Source of the DNA: Clostridiales bacterium
GTDB lineage: Bacteria > Bacillota_A > Clostridia > Saccharofermentanales > Saccharofermentanaceae
Direction of reading: 5' to 3'
Length of the DNA: 8,179 nucleotides
Assembly (NCBI GenBank): GCA_024695545.1
Contig: JAILHZ010000104.1
Span: 1 to 8,179, forward strand
The notes under the pieces were generated by a model. The model was not told where the DNA came from. It saw only the letters and a program-made list of their open reading frames with translations, and did no database searches. Within the stretch, counting starts at the first letter, position 1; each line of letters opens with the position of its first letter. Below are positions 1 to 8,179 of this stretch, piece by piece. A program made the translations under genes and the position numbers.

Positions 1-106
1 GATTATAGGGATTACGCACGAGGACGAAGCCTTCTTTGATCCGGTTACAGAGCCACTCGGAATAAAAGGCCGGAATATCGGTGCGCATGCCTGTCTGGAT
101 GATCAT
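1..106 (-). CDS. DUF1848 family protein (N-terminal part, runs off the window)
   Basis: Only the first 35 codons are present; the gene continues beyond position 1. The peptide begins MIIQTGMRTDIPAFYSEW and continues through a Lys-Glu-Gly-Phe-Val-Leu-Val-Arg-Asn-Pro-Tyr-Asn stretch. This start (RTDIPAFYSEW, then VLVRNP) is the one I know from DUF1848 proteins, an uncharacterised bacterial family. The start is well set: AAAGGAG lies at 115-121, 8 nt upstream, inside the end of the sirtuin gene. The ATG overlaps the sirtuin stop as ATGA, so the two are probably translationally coupled. Its place as the third gene after a macrodomain and a class M sirtuin suggests it works with the ADP-ribosylation pair; that is inference. 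No catalytic residues can be judged from this fragment. Confidence 0.8.
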   Translation of the reverse strand, partial: MIIQTGMRTDIPAFYSEWLCNRIKEGFVLVRNPYN

Positions 107-930
107 GGTTTCAGCTCCTTTAGGACCTCGCCGATATCGCCCGTGATCAGGATCGCCTGGTCCTTGATCTCCTCCGGACAGATGGCTTCTTCGAAGTTGA
201 TGCAGGCATAGGTCGCCTGCGGATTCTGCGCGGTCATTCTCCAGAACGGATACTTAATGATGACCGGTGTGTTGTATCCGACACCCAGTTCCAGGAAAAG
301 AATTTTCCCCGACTTATGCGTTTCCAGAAATACTTCGTATCTCGAGCACGCAAGTTTCCATCCGTCATCCTCGACAAACTTATCGTCGGAACGAAGATTC
401 ATGGTAAGCGGTTTCCCGCACTTCGGACATCTCGGGATCAGCTCGGACGGGATACGCATATCCTTCTGCTGCTCGTACATTTTCTTTATCATCTCTTCGT
501 TATCGTAGGTGTCCTGTGTACAGGGCTCCGTGCACTGGAAAAGGCCGTAATCCCCCTGAGTATAAAAGAGCCGTTCCTTATCGAATCCCGCCTTCTGGAA
601 GCAGTGATCCACGTTCGTCGTTAGGACAAAATAGTCCTTGTCCTTCACCAGCGAAAAGAGGTCGTCGTACACAGGTTTCGGCGCATCCAGATAACGGTTG
701 ATGTAGATGTATCTGGACCAGTACGCCCACATGATCTCCGGCTCCATTCCCAGCACATGAAAGCCGCCGGTATACATGTCCGTGAAGCCGTACTTTTCAG
801 AAAAGTCGGAAAAGTATTTCTCGAACCGCTCACCGCTATAGATAAAGCCCGCCGAAGTAGAAAGACCCGCGCCGGCACCGATCACGACAGCATCCGCCTC
901 GGATAGGGCTTGCTTCAGTTTTTCATACAT
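103..930 (-). CDS. Class M sirtuin (SirTM-like), probable protein ADP-ribosyltransferase
   Basis: A 275-residue cytoplasmic sirtuin. The NAD-binding motif is GAGAGLSTSAG (residues 18-28) and the ribose/nicotinamide motif TTNVDH is at 104-109. A structural zinc site is visible as C133-x3-C137 and C168-x2-C171, and a late LELGVGYNTPVIIKYPFW block (214-230) matches class M proteins. Classical deacetylase sirtuins have a catalytic His before Gly in the 'HG' motif; here that place reads Gln125-Gly-Asp. This is the substitution known for SirTM enzymes, which ADP-ribosylate a protein (a lipoylated GcvH-like carrier in staphylococci and streptococci). So I expect a transferase rather than a deacetylase; the substrate here is unknown. 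I chose the ATG at 930, preceded by GAGGTGA at 936-942. A possible GTG at 939 lies inside that ribosome site. It overlaps the macrodomain gene by 8 bp and DUF1848 by 4 bp. Confidence 0.9.
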   Translation of the reverse strand: MYEKLKQALSEADAVVIGAGAGLSTSAGFIYSGERFEKYFSDFSEKYGFTDMYTGGFHVLGMEPEIMWAYWSRYIYINRYLDAPKPVYDDLFSLVKDKDYFVLTTNVDHCFQKAGFDKERLFYTQGDYGLFQCTEPCTQDTYDNEEMIKKMYEQQKDMRIPSELIPRCPKCGKPLTMNLRSDDKFVEDDGWKLACSRYEVFLETHKSGKILFLELGVGYNTPVIIKYPFWRMTAQNPQATYACINFEEAICPEEIKDQAILITGDIGEVLKELKP

Positions 931-1720
931 TACGATCACCTCGATTCAGAAGGTTCTGGTAAAACAGAAGATCAATATCCTTAAACACATTGAAAAGCAC
1001 TTTGATCCCGCTTCCGGTCGTATCCAGATATTCCTTCACCGTCGCCACGGCGATCTCCGCTGCTCTTTCATTCGGAAACATAAATACACCGGTAGAAATG
1101 CAGCAGAGGGCGACACTCGAAAGACCGGTTTCATCCGCCAGTTTCAGGATCGACCGATAGCAGGATGCCAGATCGTCTTCATTTTGTTTCGTCAGAACGT
1201 GCTGCACGATCGGGCCGACGGTGTGGATGATATACTTAGCCGGAAGATTAAATGCCGGCGTGATCTTGGCGCCTCCGGTCGGTTCCGGATATCCCTGTTT
1301 CTCGATAATGTCATTGCAGTAAAGCCGGAGCTGGATGCCGGCCTTGGAACCCAGGATGTTGTCCAGACATGAATGCAGCCACTGATAGCAGCCGGTGAAG
1401 CCGGAATTAGCCGGATTTACCACAGCATCCACCGCTAGCCTGGACATATCTCCCTGCCATAGATAGATCCGTGCATCCGAGCTGATGGGCTTAAGATCCT
1501 CTATTCTCACAATGCCTTCCGCTTCATTTTCCGCCGTCAGATATTCATCCTGAATCTTCAGAAATTCATCACTGATCGGATCGGGCATACGGATATTCAT
1601 AAGACCCCGAAGGAGATCTTTCTGTTCCTGTTCGCCGGCAGGTATTTCCACTTCGGCTGCATCCGACCTCTCCGCCAGAAGCTGCTTGATCAGCCAGATT
1701 CTCTGCTCATCATGATTCAT
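923..1720 (-). CDS. Zinc-type macrodomain protein, probable protein-ADP-ribose hydrolase
   Basis: A 265-residue protein with a helical N-terminal extension (about 1-80) followed by a macrodomain (about 83-260). Visible signatures are VVNPANSG (100-107), GCYQWLHSCLDN (110-121), PTGGAKITPAFNLPAKYIIHTVGPI (147-171) and STGVFMFP (209-216). The Cys111-x4-His116-x-Cys118 pattern matches the zinc ligands of the zinc macrodomain class that pairs with SirTM and removes mono-ADP-ribose from proteins. So this is probably the eraser for the sirtuin encoded next. The usual VNAAN reads VNPAN here, a mild oddity. Start: GAGGAG at 1728-1733 lies 7 nt before the ATG at 1720, which is better than a TTG further upstream at 1738. 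A short reading frame ends 4 nt before this start, so translation may be coupled. Cytoplasmic; no signal peptide. Confidence 0.9.
   Translation of the reverse strand: MNHDEQRIWLIKQLLAERSDAAEVEIPAGEQEQKDLLRGLMNIRMPDPISDEFLKIQDEYLTAENEAEGIVRIEDLKPISSDARIYLWQGDMSRLAVDAVVNPANSGFTGCYQWLHSCLDNILGSKAGIQLRLYCNDIIEKQGYPEPTGGAKITPAFNLPAKYIIHTVGPIVQHVLTKQNEDDLASCYRSILKLADETGLSSVALCCISTGVFMFPNERAAEIAVATVKEYLDTTGSGIKVLFNVFKDIDLLFYQNLLNRGDRNV
936..942 (-). promoter_or_regulatory. Ribosome binding site that decides the sirtuin start
   Basis: On the minus strand GAGGTGA stands 5 nt before the ATG at 930. The alternative upstream start (GTG at 937-939) is part of this same motif, so it cannot be served by it. 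The site lies inside the last codons of the macrodomain gene. Confidence 0.75.
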
Positions 1721-1724
1721 CGGC

Positions 1725-1781
1725 TCACTCCTCTTCAAAAGGTATATACCATATATGTTCAGATAGTTTTTGCAGTTCCAT
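1725..1781 (-). pseudogene. Short frame resembling the N-terminus of an MBL-fold hydrolase; deletion scar or leader peptide
   Basis: AAAGGAG (1787-1793) is followed after 5 nt by an ATG opening an 18-codon frame, MELQKLSEHIWYIPFEEE, which ends with TGA. From memory, this matches the opening of a group of metallo-beta-lactamase-fold hydrolases that start 'xLxKLSEHIWYxPxEEERDRP'. The frame stops exactly at the EEE codons. Those codons (GAA GAG GAG) also supply the GAGGAG ribosome site of the macrodomain gene, whose ATG begins 4 nt after the TGA. The rest of the hydrolase, including its HxHxDH metal motif, is absent. The simplest reading is a hydrolase gene deleted down to its first codons, leaving a translated leader coupled to the macrodomain gene. 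A functional leader peptide is possible. It starts 17 nt after the nitrilase stop codon ends. Confidence 0.5.
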
Positions 1782-1798
1782 CTTTTCTCCTTTACTCA

Positions 1799-2674
1799 TT
1801 ACCAGTGAACGAACTCTCCGCCGATCACGCCCCGCACTTCGGGATCAGCAAGGATCCCGTACTTCTCGGGTCGTCTGTATTTGTCGCCCATGATGTCGTT
1901 GCTTCGGTGTCCTCTCAGCTGATCCAGATCGAGTTCCGCGATATACACACCCGGCTCGCCCGGTGCTTCCAGTACGCACATATCTCTCACGCCCGGCTCA
2001 TCCCGAAGCCACGGCACGCCGTCGAAAAGCGTCGAGTGACCGTTGCAATCCGGCTGTCCTTCCGGGTAGTTGCAGGTCGCTACCGCCACCATGTTTTCGT
2101 AAGATCTAGCTCGAAGAGTGGAAAGCCGGTTGATCTCCATAGGACAGGCATTCGGCGCCAGGATCAGTTCCGCACCTTTGAGCATCAGGATTCGGGCGCT
2201 CTCCGGAAATTCTCTGTCGAAGCAGATCATGGATCCGAACTTTACTTTTCCTCTTCCGAAATCCAGGTCCGCGACGTAGAAATCATCTCCGCCACTTAAG
2301 ACTTTTTCATCGGCAAAAGCACATGGATGTACCTTTGAATAGTGAAGGATCTCTTTCCCTGTCCGATCAAAGAAGATCACGGAATTCAGCGGCTTCGGCT
2401 CGTGTTCTTCTAAGAAAGTGATGCCGATCGCCATCTGAAGCTCAGAGGCAAGATCCCGGAACGTTTTGACGAACTCACTGTCTTTTTTGATAGCGAGTTT
2501 GCGTATTTCGGCTTCATCCTGTGGAAGCGCATATCCGTCGCTCCACATCTCCGGAAAAAGCGCCACATCCGCGCCCTTTTCTTTTGCTTCCTCACAGGCC
2601 TTTTTCCCGATCAGAAGATTCTCATCAAGATCCTTACCGGGAAGGATCTGAAGTAATGCTATTTTCAGGTTCAT
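1799..2674 (-). CDS. Carbon-nitrogen hydrolase (nitrilase superfamily amidohydrolase)
   Basis: A 291-residue protein, normal for a single-domain carbon-nitrogen hydrolase, predicted to cleave an amide or carbamoyl C-N bond in the cytoplasm. The Glu-Lys-Cys triad is visible: Glu42 in FPEMWSDGY, Lys114 in HYSKVHPCAF and Cys151 in GSMICFDREFPE. The LILAPNACPMEINR block after the cysteine and the SYENMVAVATCNYP block near residue 200 fit N-carbamoyl/omega-amidase-like members, but the substrate cannot be named. I chose the ATG at 2674 because the mature family start (KIALLQI) follows at once. A GTG at 2701 would add nine Lys-rich residues and has no better ribosome site; the site for 2674 is also weak (GTGAGAG). 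The gene ends 17 nt before the next ribosome-served ATG, so it is probably cotranscribed with the macrodomain-sirtuin group. Confidence 0.88.
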   Translation of the reverse strand: MNLKIALLQILPGKDLDENLLIGKKACEEAKEKGADVALFPEMWSDGYALPQDEAEIRKLAIKKDSEFVKTFRDLASELQMAIGITFLEEHEPKPLNSVIFFDRTGKEILHYSKVHPCAFADEKVLSGGDDFYVADLDFGRGKVKFGSMICFDREFPESARILMLKGAELILAPNACPMEINRLSTLRARSYENMVAVATCNYPEGQPDCNGHSTLFDGVPWLRDEPGVRDMCVLEAPGEPGVYIAELDLDQLRGHRSNDIMGDKYRRPEKYGILADPEVRGVIGGEFVHW

Positions 2675-2732
2675 TTTATCTCTCACTTTACTCTTTTTCA
2701 CAAGAACAGATGGTTTTTCTTCTTTCTCTTGA

Positions 2733-4076
2733 TTAGATTTCCGCTGATGGATTTAGAATCGGAAGTTCAACATCATTCTTTACAAACGTGCACATGTATA
2801 TAGGGAGATATCGCGTTCTCTCTTCCCTCGACACATTGTATCCAGAGAACACAATCGCTTCGAGGATATCAAATTCTTCATTATTCAAGCAGTTCGTCAA
2901 AGCAGAATGCACATAGTAGTCTTTTCCACTTTTAATCTCGATGGGAAGGATATGTCCATTATGTTCAATTACACAATCCAACTCACCTAGCCGCTTGCTG
3001 TTGTAATAGTATGTATCAAACCCATGAGCACACAGTTCCTGCATCACCGCGTTCTCATATATGCCTCCACAATTGATTGTTTTATTCTCTGAAAGAATTC
3101 CAAGTTTCATAGACGGTCCGTATATATCTGTTAGCAGTCCAACATCAGACATATATAGTTTTACAAGACTGCTTTTCATATTCTGATTAAGAGCGATTTT
3201 CGGTTCCGTAGCATTATATACACAGATCGTAACTCCGGCGCTTTTGAGCCATAAGAAACTGTCTTCTACACGTTCGAATTTCAATCCTTTCTTTATATCT
3301 GCAAAGTTAAACCTCCTATTTTGCTTCAGCAATTCGGATGGTACCAGTTCATAGACCGATTGAAGCATCAGTTTCTTTTCTTTCGCTTCGTACTTCGTAA
3401 AGTCTCTTTTATATTCAGAGATGATGTTTTTCTGAATCGATGAAACTTTTCTAATATCACCACTTTCCACAAATTCATTCACACAGGCAGGCATGCCGCC
3501 AACAACCAAATATCTTCTGAATTGTTCCATCATCTTATTGTGGACGTTTTCCGTTACTTCTTTGTCTTCATCGAAGCATTCCCTCAAATAGTCTATTACT
3601 TCATCTTTTACGCCACACGCCCATAAGAACTCTATAAAATCGAGTGGATACATGGTTATCTCATCTAAATATCCAACAGGTGCAGATCGCAGATCTATTA
3701 GCTCTACCCCTAAGAGTGAGCCACTCAGTATGTATTTGAAACTCCCATCATCAACCCAGAATTTAATTTTCGTTACAATATCCTTATACTCCTGAACTTC
3801 ATCCAGAAAAAGGATCGTCTGGCCTTCTGTAAGACTTCTGTTTAACGAAGCAGAAATACTTATCTTTAAATCCTCTGTTGATTTACTGTTTTCAAATACA
3901 GCCACCAGCTCCGGATTTTTGATGAAGTTTATTTCTATGTAATCAGCATTCTTCTGTTTCAAACAGTTTCTAATCAGATACGTCTTACCAACTTGTCGCG
4001 CTCCACTGACAAGCATCGCATTCCGACCATCCGTTATCCAACTGTTAATGGCTGTCTCCAAGTGTCTCTTAAGCAT
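2733..4076 (-). CDS. AAA-type ATPase with DUF4143/PD-(D/E)xK-like C-terminus
   Basis: A 447-residue protein of the AAA_14-DUF4143 type, abundant in anaerobes and of unproven function. Walker A is GARQVGKT (25-32), Walker B is TILFLDEV (87-94), and a sensor-like YILSGSLLG follows (115-123). The RYLVVGGMPACVNEFVES block (188-205) and the GIYENAVMQEL block (338-348) are typical of the family. The C-terminal part carries a PD-(D/E)xK-like core: Glu341, GELDCVIE with Asp367, and IEIKSGK with Glu380 and Lys382. Start: ATG at 4076 with AGGAG at 4087-4091, 10 nt upstream, a little long. Its DNA is visibly richer in A+T than the genes on both sides and it has its own promoter and repeat array, which suggests later acquisition. 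No clear terminator follows, so its transcript may run on into the nitrilase gene. It may relate to mobile-element or defence functions, but nothing here proves that. Confidence 0.9.
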   Translation of the reverse strand: MLKRHLETAINSWITDGRNAMLVSGARQVGKTYLIRNCLKQKNADYIEINFIKNPELVAVFENSKSTEDLKISISASLNRSLTEGQTILFLDEVQEYKDIVTKIKFWVDDGSFKYILSGSLLGVELIDLRSAPVGYLDEITMYPLDFIEFLWACGVKDEVIDYLRECFDEDKEVTENVHNKMMEQFRRYLVVGGMPACVNEFVESGDIRKVSSIQKNIISEYKRDFTKYEAKEKKLMLQSVYELVPSELLKQNRRFNFADIKKGLKFERVEDSFLWLKSAGVTICVYNATEPKIALNQNMKSSLVKLYMSDVGLLTDIYGPSMKLGILSENKTINCGGIYENAVMQELCAHGFDTYYYNSKRLGELDCVIEHNGHILPIEIKSGKDYYVHSALTNCLNNEEFDILEAIVFSGYNVSREERTRYLPIYMCTFVKNDVELPILNPSAEI

Positions 4077-4089
4077 ATTGGCATCACTC

Positions 4090-4108
4090 CTATATAGTGA
4101 TTATATAG
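4090..4108. repeat. Inverted repeat over the -10 box, candidate operator
   Basis: CTATATA (4090-4096) and TATATAG (4102-4108) are perfect inverted arms around the 5-bp centre GTGAT. The repeat covers the -10 box and the start-point region of the ATPase promoter, where a bound repressor would block transcription. AT-rich arms can occur by chance, so the operator role is inference. Confidence 0.5.
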
Positions 4109-4128
4109 AGAAATCGCCACTTTTTCAA
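4100..4128 (-). promoter_or_regulatory. Near-consensus sigma-A promoter of the ATPase gene
   Basis: On the minus strand a -35 TTGAAA (4123-4128) is separated by exactly 17 bp from a perfect -10 TATAAT (4100-4105). The start codon follows 23 nt after the -10 box, so the leader is short. The -35 lies inside the gene-proximal unit of the 32-bp-spaced repeat array, and the -10 lies inside an inverted repeat. Confidence 0.8.
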
Positions 4129-4225
4129 TGCAAAAACAATCTGAATTTCCACTTTTTCCATGGTTTTTCCTTAGTTTTTTCCACTTTTTCCATGAAAAAT
4201 CATTCGAAATTTCCACTTTTTCCAT
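4114..4225. repeat. Four 16-bp direct repeats at an exact 32-bp spacing upstream of the ATPase gene
   Basis: The unit TTTCCACTTTTTCCAT (minus strand ATGGAAAAAGTGGAAA) is identical at 4146-4161, 4178-4193 and 4210-4225. A fourth copy at 4114-4129 matches 13 of 16 bases. All four starts are exactly 32 bp apart, and the 16-bp spacers between them differ in sequence. Because 32 is not a multiple of three, this is not a repeated peptide. It is close to three helical turns, so all units face the same side of the DNA. In the gene-proximal copy a changed base turns ATGGAAA into ATTGAAA, making the -35 TTGAAA. The array fills the gap between the transglutaminase-like gene and the ATPase gene. It is probably a binding array for a regulator of the ATPase gene, or an element-specific repeat. 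Confidence 0.85.
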
Positions 4226-4240
4226 AACGCAAGGCTTTCT

Positions 4241-4942
4241 TCACAGCTTCCGCATCCGCGCCACGTTCCGGTTCATGACTTTTCTTCCGTAGTGGACATA
4301 GGCGAAGTCCTTGATTTTGCTCCATGTCTGCTTGTGAAGAGTAAAGAAAGTATCCGGATCGTCGAAGGTTCCGAAGTCTTTCACCATCGATGCATTCTGC
4401 ACGAAAAGATCCAGTCCCCGCCAGGTCAGATCCAGTTCTGTCAGGTCCGGAACCGAGATGGCATATTTCTGAAAAGGCCCCTTCTTCGGATTCTCCTTCT
4501 TCTTCACGCCCTGCACATAGGCTTCGTCCGTGATTACGCCTTCCAGCGCGATCCATTTCCCGTCATAGAAAACCTCCACCCAGGTATGGGCGATCGTTTT
4601 TGGTGCAAGGATCGAGATGATGCCCGAGGTCGCCCCTTTCTGAAAGCACTTGCTGACTTCCGATCCGTGCAGTCGGCAGGGAATCCCGCATCCGCGAAGA
4701 AGCGCCATGAGAAGTGTAGCCTTGGTGTTGCACTGACCGTATCCGTCTGCGAGCACCTCTTCTGCGGTGAGCGTGTCGGAGCGGTTATATCCGAAAAGGA
4801 TCTCATTTCGGACATAGTCATAGATCGCGCCAATTCTGTCGAATGTGTCGAGGTTTTCCCAGCCACGAGACTCGATCAGATTTCGGATCGGTGCGGCGTC
4901 ATAGTTTACCATCGGGGTCTTTTTAAGATATTTATTTTCCAT
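4241..4942 (-). CDS. Transglutaminase-like cysteine protease-fold protein
   Basis: A 233-residue protein of the transglutaminase-like superfamily, with no signal peptide or membrane segment, so probably cytoplasmic. The core is visible: Cys71 in DGYGQCNTKATLLMALLRGCGIPCRL, His119 in IAHTWVEVFYDGKW, and then the position that normally carries the catalytic Asp, which reads Glu134 in IALEGVI. The Cys and His favour an active thiol enzyme (peptidase or amidase); the Asp-to-Glu change is unusual, and Asp139 nearby could serve instead. Start: ATG at 4942 with AGAGG at 4949-4953, 6 nt upstream. It follows the AraC-type gene by 50 bp on the same strand and is probably cotranscribed with it. The C-terminal ~60 residues are basic (RKVMNRNVARMRKL). 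The substrate is unknown. Confidence 0.85.
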   Translation of the reverse strand: MENKYLKKTPMVNYDAAPIRNLIESRGWENLDTFDRIGAIYDYVRNEILFGYNRSDTLTAEEVLADGYGQCNTKATLLMALLRGCGIPCRLHGSEVSKCFQKGATSGIISILAPKTIAHTWVEVFYDGKWIALEGVITDEAYVQGVKKKENPKKGPFQKYAISVPDLTELDLTWRGLDLFVQNASMVKDFGTFDDPDTFFTLHKQTWSKIKDFAYVHYGRKVMNRNVARMRKL

Positions 4943-4992
4943 ACTGTGCCTCTTTTCTTTTCATTTCTGGCATCAGTATAGAAAAACGGGGA

Positions 4993-5742
4993 TTAATAAA
5001 CTTTCAGAAATTCGCTATCTTTTATGGTGCTTCTCGCCGGAAGTCCCATGAGTCTTTTTACCGTGGAAGCAAAATGCGACGGTGAGTCAAAGCCCGCATC
5101 CATCGCGGCATCCGTGATCTTTCTTCCGCTTAAGATATCCTGGAATACTCTCTCCAGCTGGTGCAGGAGAAGATAGTCTTTTAATGTAATCCCCACCTGC
5201 TCTGAGAAAAGATGCGACAGACGGGACGAAGAAAGATGCAGTTCTTCCGCAAAATGGTCGATGGAGTGATCCGTGCAGCTGCAGTTTTCCAGCATGGAAA
5301 GGAACTCCATGATGCGCTCGTCCAAGTGCTTTTCGCAAGGTCCTGCGCCAATCACCTCATAGAGTTTTTGCATCAGTTTCGTGTAAGGTGCTTTTGAAAA
5401 AGAATCCATCATCGGACGGGCAAGCGCGGCCAATTCTTCCGCCTGAGCATCTTCCAGTGCGAAATACTCTTTCCCGCTAAGAAGCGCGCTCAGTTTCCGC
5501 CCCATATCCGAGGCAGGCTCAATCACGCAGGTAAAAAGAAGCCCGTCATGAAACTTCACGGCATGTTTCACATTGACATTCACGAACAGGCAGCGGTCGT
5601 GGATCTTCTCCTTCCCCACCTTCATCTCCGGGACACCCTCAAGGAACAGGAAAAACTGGATCATGCCGTGGCTGTGCGTCGCGGCTTCCAGATGATCCGT
5701 CAGTGAAGCAATCTTATCGATATCCCAGTAGATCCGGTTCAT
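4993..5742 (-). CDS. AraC-family transcriptional regulator
   Basis: A 249-residue regulator. The N-terminal half (about 1-130) looks like a cupin-type sensor domain, with HSHG (23-26) in a cupin-like setting and a KHAVKFH segment near 59-65. The C-terminal half carries the double helix-turn-helix of AraC proteins: first about 158-180 (DHFAEELHLSSSRLSHLF), second about 207-229 (ITDAAMDAGFDSPSHFASTVKRLMG). The family binds direct repeats near promoters and responds to a small ligand; the ligand is unknown. I chose the ATG at 5742 because the sensor domain starts there and AAAGGA lies 8 nt upstream. A longer upstream extension would overlap the previous gene and is low-complexity. It starts 31 bp after the phosphotransferase-like/GNAT gene. 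It may control this cluster, though no operator can be pointed to. Confidence 0.88.
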   Translation of the reverse strand: MNRIYWDIDKIASLTDHLEAATHSHGMIQFFLFLEGVPEMKVGKEKIHDRCLFVNVNVKHAVKFHDGLLFTCVIEPASDMGRKLSALLSGKEYFALEDAQAEELAALARPMMDSFSKAPYTKLMQKLYEVIGAGPCEKHLDERIMEFLSMLENCSCTDHSIDHFAEELHLSSSRLSHLFSEQVGITLKDYLLLHQLERVFQDILSGRKITDAAMDAGFDSPSHFASTVKRLMGLPARSTIKDSEFLKVY

Positions 5743-5773
5743 GCCTTTAGTCCTTTGCCTCCTGCTCACTTTT

Positions 5774-7378
5774 TTACTTGACTGCACTCTGTTCGAAAAA
5801 CTGTTTTCCCGTAAGAAGCCGCACCATCTTCCATCCGGCGCGGTGTTTAAGTAGGCTCTCCTTTTCCGGCTGAAAACCGAGATCGGAATATACTTTGCAT
5901 GCAAGCCACGTATTCGTCTGCGTATGGATCTTCGTCCTTTTGTACCCGAGGTCTTTCATGACGTTCAGGACAAAAGTGATCAGCGGCTTGGAAAGTCCTT
6001 TTCCCTGGACGTCCTTCTTTATGGCCACCCAGTGAAGCTGTCCTTCGTCCGGATCCGGCTCTCTATGGATATCGTAAAATGCCGTGGCGGTTCCGATCTT
6101 TTCACCGGCATCATTTTCGATAAAGAACATCCTTTTCGGAAGTTCTTCCTCTCTGCTTCCGTAATAACGCGCCCAGCATTCTTCTCCGTGCTCTTTACTT
6201 AAGACCTCACCGGAAGACAGTTCAATATCGATCCAGGCATCTTTATCTCCGGGTCTGTAATTCACGAAACGGTAGCCTTGGGGAAGTGGATACTCGGGGA
6301 TATCCGAGAGTCCTCCTTCAAAAACGAGATCGATATAACAGAGACGGTCATCATGGGTCATGAAGCACTTGGGATCCGGCGCGGGAAGTTCTTCCAGCAC
6401 CTTTTTCACTTCGCCTTCGATCTCATGAAGATACTTTATCCTTCCAATCGTATTTCTTACTTCCGCTTCACCGAGACGGATCTCTTCTTCCCGAGAACTC
6501 GCGATTCCCAGAGCACGGAGAATGTTATATTCCAGCCACGCTACCCACGAATAGGCGATCCCGTAAAGATCCTCATAAGAACGGAAGCCGTTGTCATAGG
6601 CTTGAAGATATCCGTCGAAAAACGCTTTCAGGTTCTCGCTTTTGAAATCCAGCTCCGTAGTCCCTGACCACTGCAGCGCCAGGTCCAGGCAGGTAGCGAT
6701 CGGATTCCCGCGGTTTAAGCATTCCAGATCGATCACATGAGCCTGTCCGTTATGCCACATGATGTTCTTCGGATCCATATCTCCGTTATTGATCGCACGC
6801 ATAGGAGGAAGACCGCATATTGCTTTGTTTAATGCCTCCTGCGCCTTTTCCAGAAGTTTCAGATCCTCTTTCAGATACGGCGCAATCGGGCTGTTCTTCT
6901 CTTCCGCCTGCTGAAGATAGGAAGAAAAATCGATCGCAGCGATCTCCGGCTCTTCGGGCTCCACATTATGTGCATCGATCCCATGGATCTTTCCGAGGAT
7001 TTCTCCTGCCGTAAAGCACTGTTCCTTCGTGATCGCACGCGGATCGGTGAGCCTTCCTTCCTGCCAGTTATAGATATAGAAATACCTTCCATCAAGAAGG
7101 AGCATCTTCTTCCCGTCAAAAGAAAGCGCGGGAACGATCGGAAGTCCATGTTCTTCAAGTACGCGCTCCAGATCTTCCGCAACCGCAAAGTTCGCAAGTG
7201 CGCCGGGGCGCTTCATGATCTCCGGATTTAAGCACTTCAGCGCATAGGTACCGGAACCGGTCTGCACCTTATACATCTTGTGCATCAGACCACCGGACAC
7301 AGGTTCGACCGGACCTGTGATCTCACCCAATCCGTATTTTTCAAACACTGCAGATGCAGTTTTATACTCTTCGTTCAC
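5774..7378 (-). CDS. Aminoglycoside-phosphotransferase-like kinase fused to a GNAT acetyltransferase
   Basis: A 534-residue two-domain protein. Residues about 1-320 are an APH/choline-kinase-like fold: the ATP-site lysine region YALKCL (Lys48), the catalytic loop INNGDMDPKNIMW (Asp200, Asn205) and the metal site VIDLEC (Asp217). The usual loop is HGDxHPxN; here the His is Asn198. Residues about 365-515 are a GNAT acetyltransferase: HWVAIKKDVQGKGLSKPLI carries the acetyl-CoA motif Q-G-K-G (458-461), and NTWLACKVYSDLGF (489-502) is the GNAT motif B region. Each domain is usually a separate protein. The family can phosphorylate or acetylate small molecules such as amino sugars or antibiotics; the substrate here cannot be told. 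Start: GTG at 7378 with AAGGAG at 7386-7391, 7 nt upstream. It lies between the DinB-like and AraC-type genes with short gaps. Confidence 0.85.
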   Translation of the reverse strand: MNEEYKTASAVFEKYGLGEITGPVEPVSGGLMHKMYKVQTGSGTYALKCLNPEIMKRPGALANFAVAEDLERVLEEHGLPIVPALSFDGKKMLLLDGRYFYIYNWQEGRLTDPRAITKEQCFTAGEILGKIHGIDAHNVEPEEPEIAAIDFSSYLQQAEEKNSPIAPYLKEDLKLLEKAQEALNKAICGLPPMRAINNGDMDPKNIMWHNGQAHVIDLECLNRGNPIATCLDLALQWSGTTELDFKSENLKAFFDGYLQAYDNGFRSYEDLYGIAYSWVAWLEYNILRALGIASSREEEIRLGEAEVRNTIGRIKYLHEIEGEVKKVLEELPAPDPKCFMTHDDRLCYIDLVFEGGLSDIPEYPLPQGYRFVNYRPGDKDAWIDIELSSGEVLSKEHGEECWARYYGSREEELPKRMFFIENDAGEKIGTATAFYDIHREPDPDEGQLHWVAIKKDVQGKGLSKPLITFVLNVMKDLGYKRTKIHTQTNTWLACKVYSDLGFQPEKESLLKHRAGWKMVRLLTGKQFFEQSAVK

Positions 7379-7418
7379 TTATTAACTCCTTCAAAAAAAG
7401 AAAGGTCCGGGAGCAGCC

Positions 7419-7943
7419 TCACAGCTGCACTTTCCCCTTGCGGTATCTTCCGAAAAAGACCCCGTCATCAACATACTTTTCCGTCTCTGATACCCACATG
7501 GGAAACTCTCCTTTCTCCAGGATCGTTTGTCCGTTAAGCATACCCGTGTGAAAGGAAATGTGGCGGAACTGCCGAAGGATCAGTTCCAGTCTCGTGTACC
7601 TGCTTCCGGACGGTTTTTCTGAAAGCATATCATCTGTAAGTCCATCAAGATATGCATATGTTTTTTCTTCGATCTCATCAAGATATTTCAAAAGCTGCTC
7701 ATCACTCAGAACCGCATCGCAGGGCTTTTCCGGGTCATCCATGCCCTCGACATGAAATGAAGGTTCTTCATATTCGAAAGGATTGATAAACCACTTGTCT
7801 GCAGAATGAAGCGCATGATAGACCCATCTCCAGCAAGGCGCCCCATAACAGATGGCATCCCGGTCATAAGTCTGGATCGAAGACCGGATATTCAGAAAAT
7901 TCGGCTTCACCGTTTCCTTGATAATTCTACAAAGATCATTCAT
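7419..7943 (-). CDS. DinB-family (YfiT/DinB-like four-helix bundle) protein
   Basis: A 174-residue protein with the features of the DinB/DUF664-like superfamily: a first metal-site His in the helix WRWVYHALHSADKWF (His43/His46) and the paired His128-x3-His132 in RQFRHISFHTGMLNG near the C-terminus. In related proteins these residues hold a divalent metal, and some members act as thiol-dependent S-transferases (bacillithiol or mycothiol type). Which reaction applies here is unknown. I chose the ATG at 7943 because GGGAG at 7952-7956 stands 8 nt upstream; an ATG at 7958 would place that ribosome site inside the gene. It is the first gene of the minus-strand cluster, about 27 nt after a likely start point from the promoter at 7977-7985. 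The next gene starts 40 bp on. Confidence 0.85.
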   Translation of the reverse strand: MNDLCRIIKETVKPNFLNIRSSIQTYDRDAICYGAPCWRWVYHALHSADKWFINPFEYEEPSFHVEGMDDPEKPCDAVLSDEQLLKYLDEIEEKTYAYLDGLTDDMLSEKPSGSRYTRLELILRQFRHISFHTGMLNGQTILEKGEFPMWVSETEKYVDDGVFFGRYRKGKVQL

Positions 7944-7976
7944 ATGCTCATCTCCCATTCATCGCTCATCAACTGC

Positions 7977-7985
7977 ATTATAGCA
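7977..7985 (-). promoter_or_regulatory. Extended -10 promoter of the DinB-first gene cluster
   Basis: The minus strand reads TGCTATAAT: a perfect TATAAT (7977-7982) with the TGn extension (7983-7985) just upstream. No good -35 is found 17 bp away (CAATTC at 8000-8005), which is common for extended -10 promoters. It is 33 bp before the DinB-like start codon. Confidence 0.6.
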
Positions 7986-8028
7986 TTCACCAGGAGCCTG
8001 AATTGATCTTGTTAGTATAAGAGCCAAA

Positions 8029-8057
8029 TTGACGTTTCCATACGGCGATGATACAAT
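8029..8057 (+). promoter_or_regulatory. Near-consensus sigma-A promoter for a small plus-strand transcript
   Basis: On the plus strand TTGACG (8029-8034) is followed by exactly 17 bp and then TACAAT (8052-8057), each one base from consensus. Transcription would begin near 8064. About 50 bp of sequence, then a hairpin and T-rich tail follow, so the promoter appears to serve a short RNA rather than a gene. Confidence 0.75.
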
Positions 8058-8063
8058 ACAAGC

Positions 8064-8154
8064 AGAAAGCACAGTCCGCGAGGACGGTTGCCTTAAAAAG
8101 TTACAAACTAACCACTCTAAGGACGGCCAATCCAGTTAGGGTGGTTATTATTTT
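8064..8154 (+). ncRNA. Candidate small RNA (about 90 nt), possible antisense antitoxin
   Basis: The transcript is bounded by the promoter at 8029-8057 and the terminator at 8109-8154. Near its 5' end an imperfect hairpin (8069-8091) is closed by a perfect GTCC/GGAC stem with a GCGA loop, a stable GNRA-type tetraloop. A linker of about 18 nt leads to the terminator hairpin. No start codon with a ribosome site is seen inside. The minus strand here is the 3' end of a probable small toxin gene, so the RNA would pair with the toxin messenger's last codons and 3' untranslated region. That geometry is known from TxpA/RatA-like and Fst-like type I systems. Boundaries are predicted, not measured. Confidence 0.6.
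8109..8154 (+). terminator. Intrinsic terminator of the plus-strand small RNA; shared hairpin with the toxin 3' end
   Basis: The stem 8109-8120 (TAACCACTCTAA) pairs with 8136-8147 (TTAGGGTGGTTA) over 12 bp with a single G-U pair and a 15-nt loop. It is followed by a T-rich run (TTATTATTTT, 8145-8154) on the plus strand. On the minus strand a T5 run lies only 13 nt beyond, so the hairpin may also stabilise the end of the toxin message. The hairpin sequence resembles, from memory, the 3' hairpins behind Firmicutes holin-like toxin genes. Confidence 0.75.
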
Positions 8155-8179
8155 CGCTTATACCTCTCGTCGAGGTACG
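8148..8179 (-). CDS. C-terminal end of a probable holin-like small toxin (type I toxin type)
   Basis: Only the last nine codons and the stop lie in the window: YLDERYKRK followed by TAA TAA (8148-8150 and 8145-8147). A short basic tail of this form, directly followed by an AATAACCACCCT...GGGTGG-type hairpin, is what I know from Firmicutes holin-like toxins (roughly 30-residue membrane peptides beginning with an 'xxYExxxLM' type segment). The start and the membrane segment lie outside the window, so the call rests on the tail, the double stop and the 3' context. It would be silenced by the convergent plus-strand RNA. Confidence 0.5.
   Translation of the reverse strand, partial: YLDERYKRK

Follow-up and report, generated by a model that had tools for sequence, protein, structure and literature searches.

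Direct repeats at a 32/33-bp step precede most sampled genes of a PDC-S01 ATPase subfamily and are candidate private operators

The DNA analysed here, called the window throughout, is a whole stretch of 8,179 nucleotides from a Clostridiales bacterium (GenBank assembly GCA_024695545.1, contig JAILHZ010000104.1, positions 1 to 8,179 of the forward strand). Its minus strand carries an AAA_14-DUF4143 ATPase gene, which matches PDC-S01 of PADLOC, and four 16-base-pair (bp) repeats stand upstream of the gene at a 32-bp step. The majority of sampled genes in this ATPase subfamily are preceded by direct repeats whose step is 32 or 33 bp. The repeat sequence is specific to the ATPase and tracks its winged-helix domain, and the period is shared. 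On sequence grounds, the array is rather likely to be a private operator array of the PDC-S01 ATPase, bound by that ATPase and autoregulating its gene. No report of such ATPase-linked arrays was found in open-licence PubMed Central (PMC) papers, and they apparently are an undescribed control element.

The array and promoter of the window are composed of the following elements.

4210..4225, minus strand: repeat unit 1 (most upstream), ATGGAAAAAGTGGAAA; sequence and repeat search
4178..4193, minus strand: repeat unit 2, identical to unit 1; sequence and repeat search
4146..4161, minus strand: repeat unit 3, identical to unit 1; sequence and repeat search
4114..4129, minus strand: repeat unit 4, ATTGAAAAAGTGGCGA, a 13/16 match that holds the -35 box
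4123..4128, minus strand: -35 box TTGAAA of the ATPase promoter, inside divergent unit 4, 17 bp from TATAAT
4100..4105, minus strand: -10 box TATAAT of the ATPase promoter
4087..4091, minus strand: ribosome-binding-site-like AGGAG, read from the sequence

Read on the plus strand, the three exact units are TTTCCACTTTTTCCAT, with start positions 4146, 4178 and 4210, and the divergent unit is the 13/16 copy TCGCCACTTTTTCAAT, starting at 4114; all steps are 32 bp. A previous sequence-only reading had described three identical units and one 13/16 copy at this spacing. The description is borne out by the sequence. When the 164-bp region was resampled with a first-order Markov model, an equally spaced exact 13-mer triple appeared in 0 of 2000 trials. 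That reading had also called the 16-bp spacers unrelated. This part needs correction, since the spacers at 4130-4145 and 4194-4209 share 11 of their 16 positions by eye count, the repeat search giving 87% over the 45-nucleotide register, and the spacers are thus not wholly unrelated. The ATPase promoter is a strong sigma70-type promoter, TTGAAA-N17-TATAAT, and its -35 box (4128-4123, 17 bp before TATAAT at 4105-4100) is given by the divergent last unit, as had been proposed.

The repeats were then surveyed across homologues from unselected, evenly drawn genomes. Matches to the ATPase were obtained in 52 of 196 Clostridia-class, 12 of 100 Spirochaetota and 15 of 148 Bacteroidota genomes. From these, 119 loci were taken (79 returned, and 40 Clostridia matches without a locus), and two without an open reading frame (ORF) were dropped to leave 117. 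Ten of the 117 were removed as belonging to the centre genomes G002, G008 and G010, which had been reached via array-bearing loci, and 107 loci from 65 genomes remained. An array was scored when a 14-bp window matched itself at 12 or more positions within 220 bp upstream, at lags from 12 to 60. Lag 33 was found in 48 and lag 32 in 19 of the 107 homologues, with a union of 64/107. Every other lag appeared in at most 4. All of the ten removed loci carry arrays, and their inclusion gives 55 for lag 33, 22 for lag 32 and 74/117 for the union. The in-gene control showed lag 33 in 1 and lag 32 in 0, and the downstream control (n = 64) showed 2 and 1, respectively. First-order Markov resampling of the 117 upstream regions, which is not an exact shuffle, gave 0.15-0.7 expected per lag.

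The geometry of the arrays was described with 129 arrays from all samples, found within 330 bp by seeding at 32 or 33 bp. The numbers of arrays with two, three, four, five and six units are 43, 64, 18, 3 and 1, respectively. With this seeding, 237 of 242 steps are 32 or 33 bp, and the step is uniform in 64 of the 77 non-duplicate arrays with at least three units. From the end of the array to the start codon, the median distance is 40 bp. The same step is shared by 66.8% of the pairs with at least 40% protein identity vs 53.9% of all pairs (0/5000 permutations).

The taxonomic spread is broad. Distant homologues of the window ATPase were found in 60 plasmid records by tblastn, and eight were fetched. 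GAAAA(A)GTG units at a 33-bp step stand upstream of the homologues in Vescimonas, Segatella hominis, Prevotella and Collinsella, and the Acinetobacter homologue has a palindromic repeat form at 32-bp spacing. Among the same eight records, no clear array was seen upstream in Segatella copri, Ruminococcus and Phocaeicola. Species genomes were scanned for AAAAGTG, with three units about 32-33 bp apart, which gave at least 117 stretches, 80 of which were examined. ATPase homology begins no more than 600 bp downstream on the same strand in 52 of the 80, four of these being remnants without the N-terminus. Three stretches have divergent ATPase homology and 25 have none, seven of the 25 having 515 bp or less of downstream sequence. 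Overall, arrays stand beside the ATPase family in Bacillota, Bacteroidota, Spirochaetota, Actinomycetota and others. The earlier suggestion that the repeat belongs to an element carrying this ATPase therefore holds insofar as arrays accompany the ATPase family across several phyla. The 16-mer was not found scattered without a spacing rule. It is also not a conserved feature in itself: the repeat sequence differs among ATPases and only the period is common.

The relation between the array and the protein was analysed with reference to the following domains of the window ATPase.

2733..4076, minus strand: AAA_14-DUF4143 ATPase of 447 amino acids matching PADLOC PDC-S01 (Pfam; PADLOC E 2.4e-181; AlphaFold2 (AF2) model with a predicted local distance difference test (pLDDT) score of 88.7)
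3612..4076, minus strand: AAA+ core, residues 1-155, borders set by hand
3393..3611, minus strand: helical linker or lid, residues 156-228, from the AF2 model with borders set by hand
3147..3392, minus strand: winged-helix-like domain, residues 229-310, whose identity predicts array similarity; AF2 model and structure matches
2772..3146, minus strand: PD-(D/E)XK nuclease-like domain, residues 311-435, from the AF2 model; the nuclease label follows the sections of PMC12988326 at hand

Genomes chosen for having one array hold up to 28 DUF4143 matches. A high paralogue load was seen in G009, G010 and G011, with 28, 22 and 22 matches in genomes of 2.1-3.5 Mb. In the fetched upstream regions, the paralogues of one genome have different repeats and the same step. 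After ten of the 129 arrays had been dropped as duplicates, array similarity rose with protein identity (rho 0.257, 7021 pairs, Mantel 0/2000 permutations), and the relation persisted in pairs below 50% identity (rho 0.221). The segment just upstream of the array showed no relation to protein identity (rho -0.025). Within each identity bin, same-genome array pairs score about as cross-genome pairs. The winged-helix test was done with 105 of 119 arrays kept by length and gap filters, giving 5408 pairs below 65% identity. The partial rho between winged-helix identity and array similarity was 0.165, and it was 0.174 in unselected genomes, each with 0/1000 permutations. Positions of the winged helix flagged by covariation include 268-271 and 288. 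Because paralogue arrays share a step and differ in sequence, and because their similarity tracks protein identity, a single host regulator is insufficient as an explanation.

The window's subclade, consisting of 14 homologues at 48-59% identity plus the window, shows how the array meets the promoter. One of 13 close homologues, L500, was dropped from scoring for want of an ORF, and L504, in which no array was seen, was left out of the promoter tests. The array is mostly retained in close homologues, with 8 of 12 scored reaching the threshold. With TTGAAA taken as the -35 consensus for scoring, 9 of 14 close homologues have a unit that contains a -35 hexamer followed at 16-18 bp by a -10 hexamer of at least 4/6. 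When the -10 match was required to be at least 5/6 at the same distance, 8 of 12 last units of the subclade passed vs 0 of 20 other units. Three of the 15 subclade sequences yielded no unit by the motif used. In this subclade, the -35 box is supplied by the last repeat. The earlier idea that same-face regulator sites extend into the promoter is upheld to this extent. The arrays are probably read by the ATPase itself rather than by a separate regulator, and the promoter fusion is seen in the window's subclade only.

The operation of such an operator can be pictured as follows. Each repeat would bind one ATPase protomer, or a dimer, through the winged helix. A step of about three helical turns would place the protomers on one face of the DNA, and cooperativity could come from contacts between AAA+ domains. 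Once the sites are filled as far as the -35 box, the gene would be repressed and a potentially harmful ATPase-nuclease kept low, and a trigger or dilution of the protein would release the repression. The private sequence would prevent cross-regulation among the many paralogues of one genome. A wider proposal, put forward tentatively, is that PDC-S01 ATPases are DNA-anchored sentinels. The private, barcode-like array, with a step proper to the subfamily (22-23 or 32-33 bp), would repress the gene and align the protomers, an infection signal would turn them into an active oligomer, and the paralogues would act independently.

Several observations weigh against the private operator. At the threshold used, 43 of the 107 unselected homologues have no 32/33-bp repeat, and a wider upstream window recovered none of the array-less homologues. 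A sigma70-like promoter scoring at least 9 was found in 76 of the 129 arrays and overlaps a unit in 33 of these 76, which is about a rough hand estimate of chance. Promoter overlap was therefore dropped as a general rule and retained for the window's subclade only. The palindromy expected for a dimer was found in just 7 of 117 arrays at p<=0.05 with 9-pair arms, 6-bp palindromes being outside the reach of this test. A palindromic dimer site as a general rule, prompted by L041, L116, L427 and L428, was dropped on this count. The correlations are modest, the whole-protein rho is just 0.09 in the unselected set, and shared ancestry is not fully removable. Random non-contiguous sets of 82 residues outside the winged helix reached 0.12. 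The winged-helix region folded alone at low confidence (pLDDT 60.7). L280 and L281, sister-clade paralogues of one genome with 81% identity, have unlike arrays. By eye, three positions distinguish their likely recognition helices, and they are a natural pair for probing the DNA code. Well-formed arrays also exist without a nearby ATPase (L063, L064, L068, L069, L088, L091, L096, L097, L113 and L119). Two phylum-wide DUF4143 samples gave 57 loci, of which 11 without an ORF and one with a short upstream region were dropped to leave 45 scored, and 0 of 4 focal-cluster members had an array there. In Thermoproteota, one clear array, of 23 bp (L509), was found in 25 scored loci of 30.

Clusters of DUF4143 proteins, drawn from all samples with the array-selected genomes included, differ in step. 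The focal cluster has a 32-33 bp step in 105/158. The cluster with the motif GPKWCGKT has 22-24 bp in 10/14, and L317, L318, L358 and L285 carry clear, gene-specific 23-bp arrays of three units. Another cluster has 22-24 bp in 5/9, and a mixed cluster (n = 53) has 32-33 bp in 10 and 22-24 bp in 5. A weak signal at 38-41 bp was seen in 7/32 members of one cluster; its 39-40 lags are irregular and are not claimed as arrays. A further cluster of five showed none. In the phylum-wide samples, the GPKWCGKT cluster scored 3/3 at 22-23 bp and the mixed cluster 4/26 at 32-33 bp. L515 and L521 of Thermoproteota reach the threshold at lag 33 with no obvious array.

Some arrays show unusual arrangements. 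The orphan array of G007, which may be a relic or a second target, is separated by about 13 kb from an ATPase-linked array that resembles it in sequence. At L076, L082, L107 and L114, the array is followed by only a C-terminal ATPase fragment, as in decayed copies keeping the array. L105:6535-7267 holds five separate three-unit matches over about 730 bp ahead of one ATPase. At L051:2240-2312, an array stands 185 bp upstream of an ORF that by eye resembles an ATPase of a different type (start MIKNPFLTYGYNGPEYFCDREAE); judging from this locus, other ATPase families may share the array habit.

Four other explanations were weighed. The array may be an assembly platform, in which the bound ATPase pre-aligns nuclease protomers for a STAND-like oligomer on infection and autoregulation is a by-product. 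The narrow and subfamily-specific step (22-23 and 32-33 bp), which is modestly heritable, fits protein geometry; promoter overlap is not general; and the fold is near the CED-4 and NLR ATPases, known oligomerisers. However, the arrays end near the start codon, and in one subclade they are fused to the -35 box, which is operator-like. No oligomer or trigger is indicated by the present data, and this explanation is considered unlikely. An iteron-, centromere- or end-like maintenance or mobility site of a mobile ATPase cassette is more doubtful. It would suit the Orc1/Cdc6-like fold, the AT-rich and probably acquired gene, the homologues on some plasmids and the relics with a partial ATPase. On the other hand, the array is one-sided (2 and 1 of 64 downstream regions at lags 33 and 32), and no transposase, relaxase or replication gene was found among the eight window ORFs scanned with Pfam. 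A host regulator unrelated to the ATPase is very improbable as the reader of the arrays. Many operators are bound by regulators whose genes lie elsewhere, and some arrays have no ATPase, but such a regulator would have to account for one step in several phyla with sequences differing between paralogues of one genome, and for array sequences that follow the winged helix over and above the remaining protein. No common named neighbour was seen in four annotated records either. A functionless repeat, arising by chance, from coding sequence or as a selfish tandem array, is hardly credible. One of the 80 pattern loci (L045) does fall in a repetitive ORF, but the window array never arose in resampling and the family-wide excess is confined to two lags, with controls.

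Comparison with known systems places the private operator in context. The nearest precedent, by analogy, is RptR. According to the sections of PMC12255303 at hand, RptR is a distinct repressor protein of 9 kDa, and its 9-bp repeats contain a 6-bp palindrome; its defence islands likewise have direct repeats over core promoter elements, and it shows cooperative autorepression. In contrast, no separate regulator is seen here, the step is 32/33 bp, the units are mostly non-palindromic and the sequences are ATPase-specific.

Orc1/Cdc6 and iteron-binding initiators bind arrayed sites beside their genes. The Orc1/Cdc6 initiators (2qby and 2v1u) share the combination of AAA+ and winged helix and are matched by the fold of the window ATPase, whereas the latter has a fused nuclease-like domain and no replicon sign was seen in the window. 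The best structural matches are STAND ATPases, namely SSO1545 and PABY2304, CED-4 and NLRs. The domains attached to these STAND ATPases are unlike those of the window ATPase. To our knowledge, no private array is associated with STAND ATPases. Rx1, an NLR, is reported to bind and bend DNA (PMC4599002, sections at hand). An ATPase domain like that of SSO1545 is present in the mycobacterial regulator IniR (PMC5760070, sections at hand). A Tn7-like end array differs in that repeats are not found at both ends here.

PDC-S01 is a widespread phage-defence candidate. The sections of PMC12988326 at hand rank it as the fourth most common prokaryotic defence locus (29,494 bacterial and 9,986 archaeal), a candidate from guilt-by-embedding in which an ATPase is fused to PD-(D/E)XK; most such candidates await validation. 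In rumen genomes, no other single locus was found as often (PMC13356809, sections at hand). No mention of an upstream array was found for PDC-S01, and 'direct repeat' and 'tandem repeat' occur 0 times in the main text of PMC12988326. The literature covered, in the sections at hand, gives no mechanism for this very common locus, and a defined cognate DNA ligand for a member would make its function addressable by binding and reporter assays. The many diverged array-ATPase pairs, several per genome, form a set for reading the DNA code of the winged helix and for distinguishing intact and decayed PDC-S01 promoters.

The assignment of the window ATPase is based on profile matches. Pfam gave AAA_14 at 84.2 bits (cut-off 27) and DUF4143 at 95.9 bits (cut-off 28.1), and the PADLOC profile covers residues 1-436. 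We take COG1373 to be the family label of PDC-S01 and AAA_14-DUF4143. All eight ATPases scanned matched PDC-S01 models, namely that of the window, two focal-clade homologues and five from four sister clusters. Walker A K31, Walker B D92 and E93, and E365, D367, E380 and K382 of the nuclease-like domain are invariant in 28/28 aligned ATPases. Searches with the window ATPase found no relative in the PDB by sequence and none in viral contigs. Two repeat-pattern scans of viral contigs gave 10 and 23 stretches.

The array sits between the ATPase gene and a transglutaminase-like gene, and no helix-turn-helix gene was found between the two among the window ORFs by Pfam. An array of clustered regularly interspaced short palindromic repeats (CRISPR) was rejected, as no cas genes were found among the eight ORFs scanned. 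The guanine-cytosine (GC) content is 38.6% in the ATPase gene, 32% in the array region and 51-52% in two neighbour genes. The ATPase gene had been called acquired, and probably is, as an AT-rich gene beside such neighbours fits this origin. No orthologous empty site was found, because the transglutaminase neighbour is matched in 8 of 391 genomes at 48% identity or less. Elsewhere in the window, two overlapping genes at 103-1738 on the minus strand encode a macrodomain protein and a presumably sirtuin-like protein, for which Pfam gave no match, and resemble an operonic ADP-ribosylation pair. At 5774-7378, an APH-type phosphotransferase domain is fused with a GNAT acetyltransferase domain in one ORF (Pfam).
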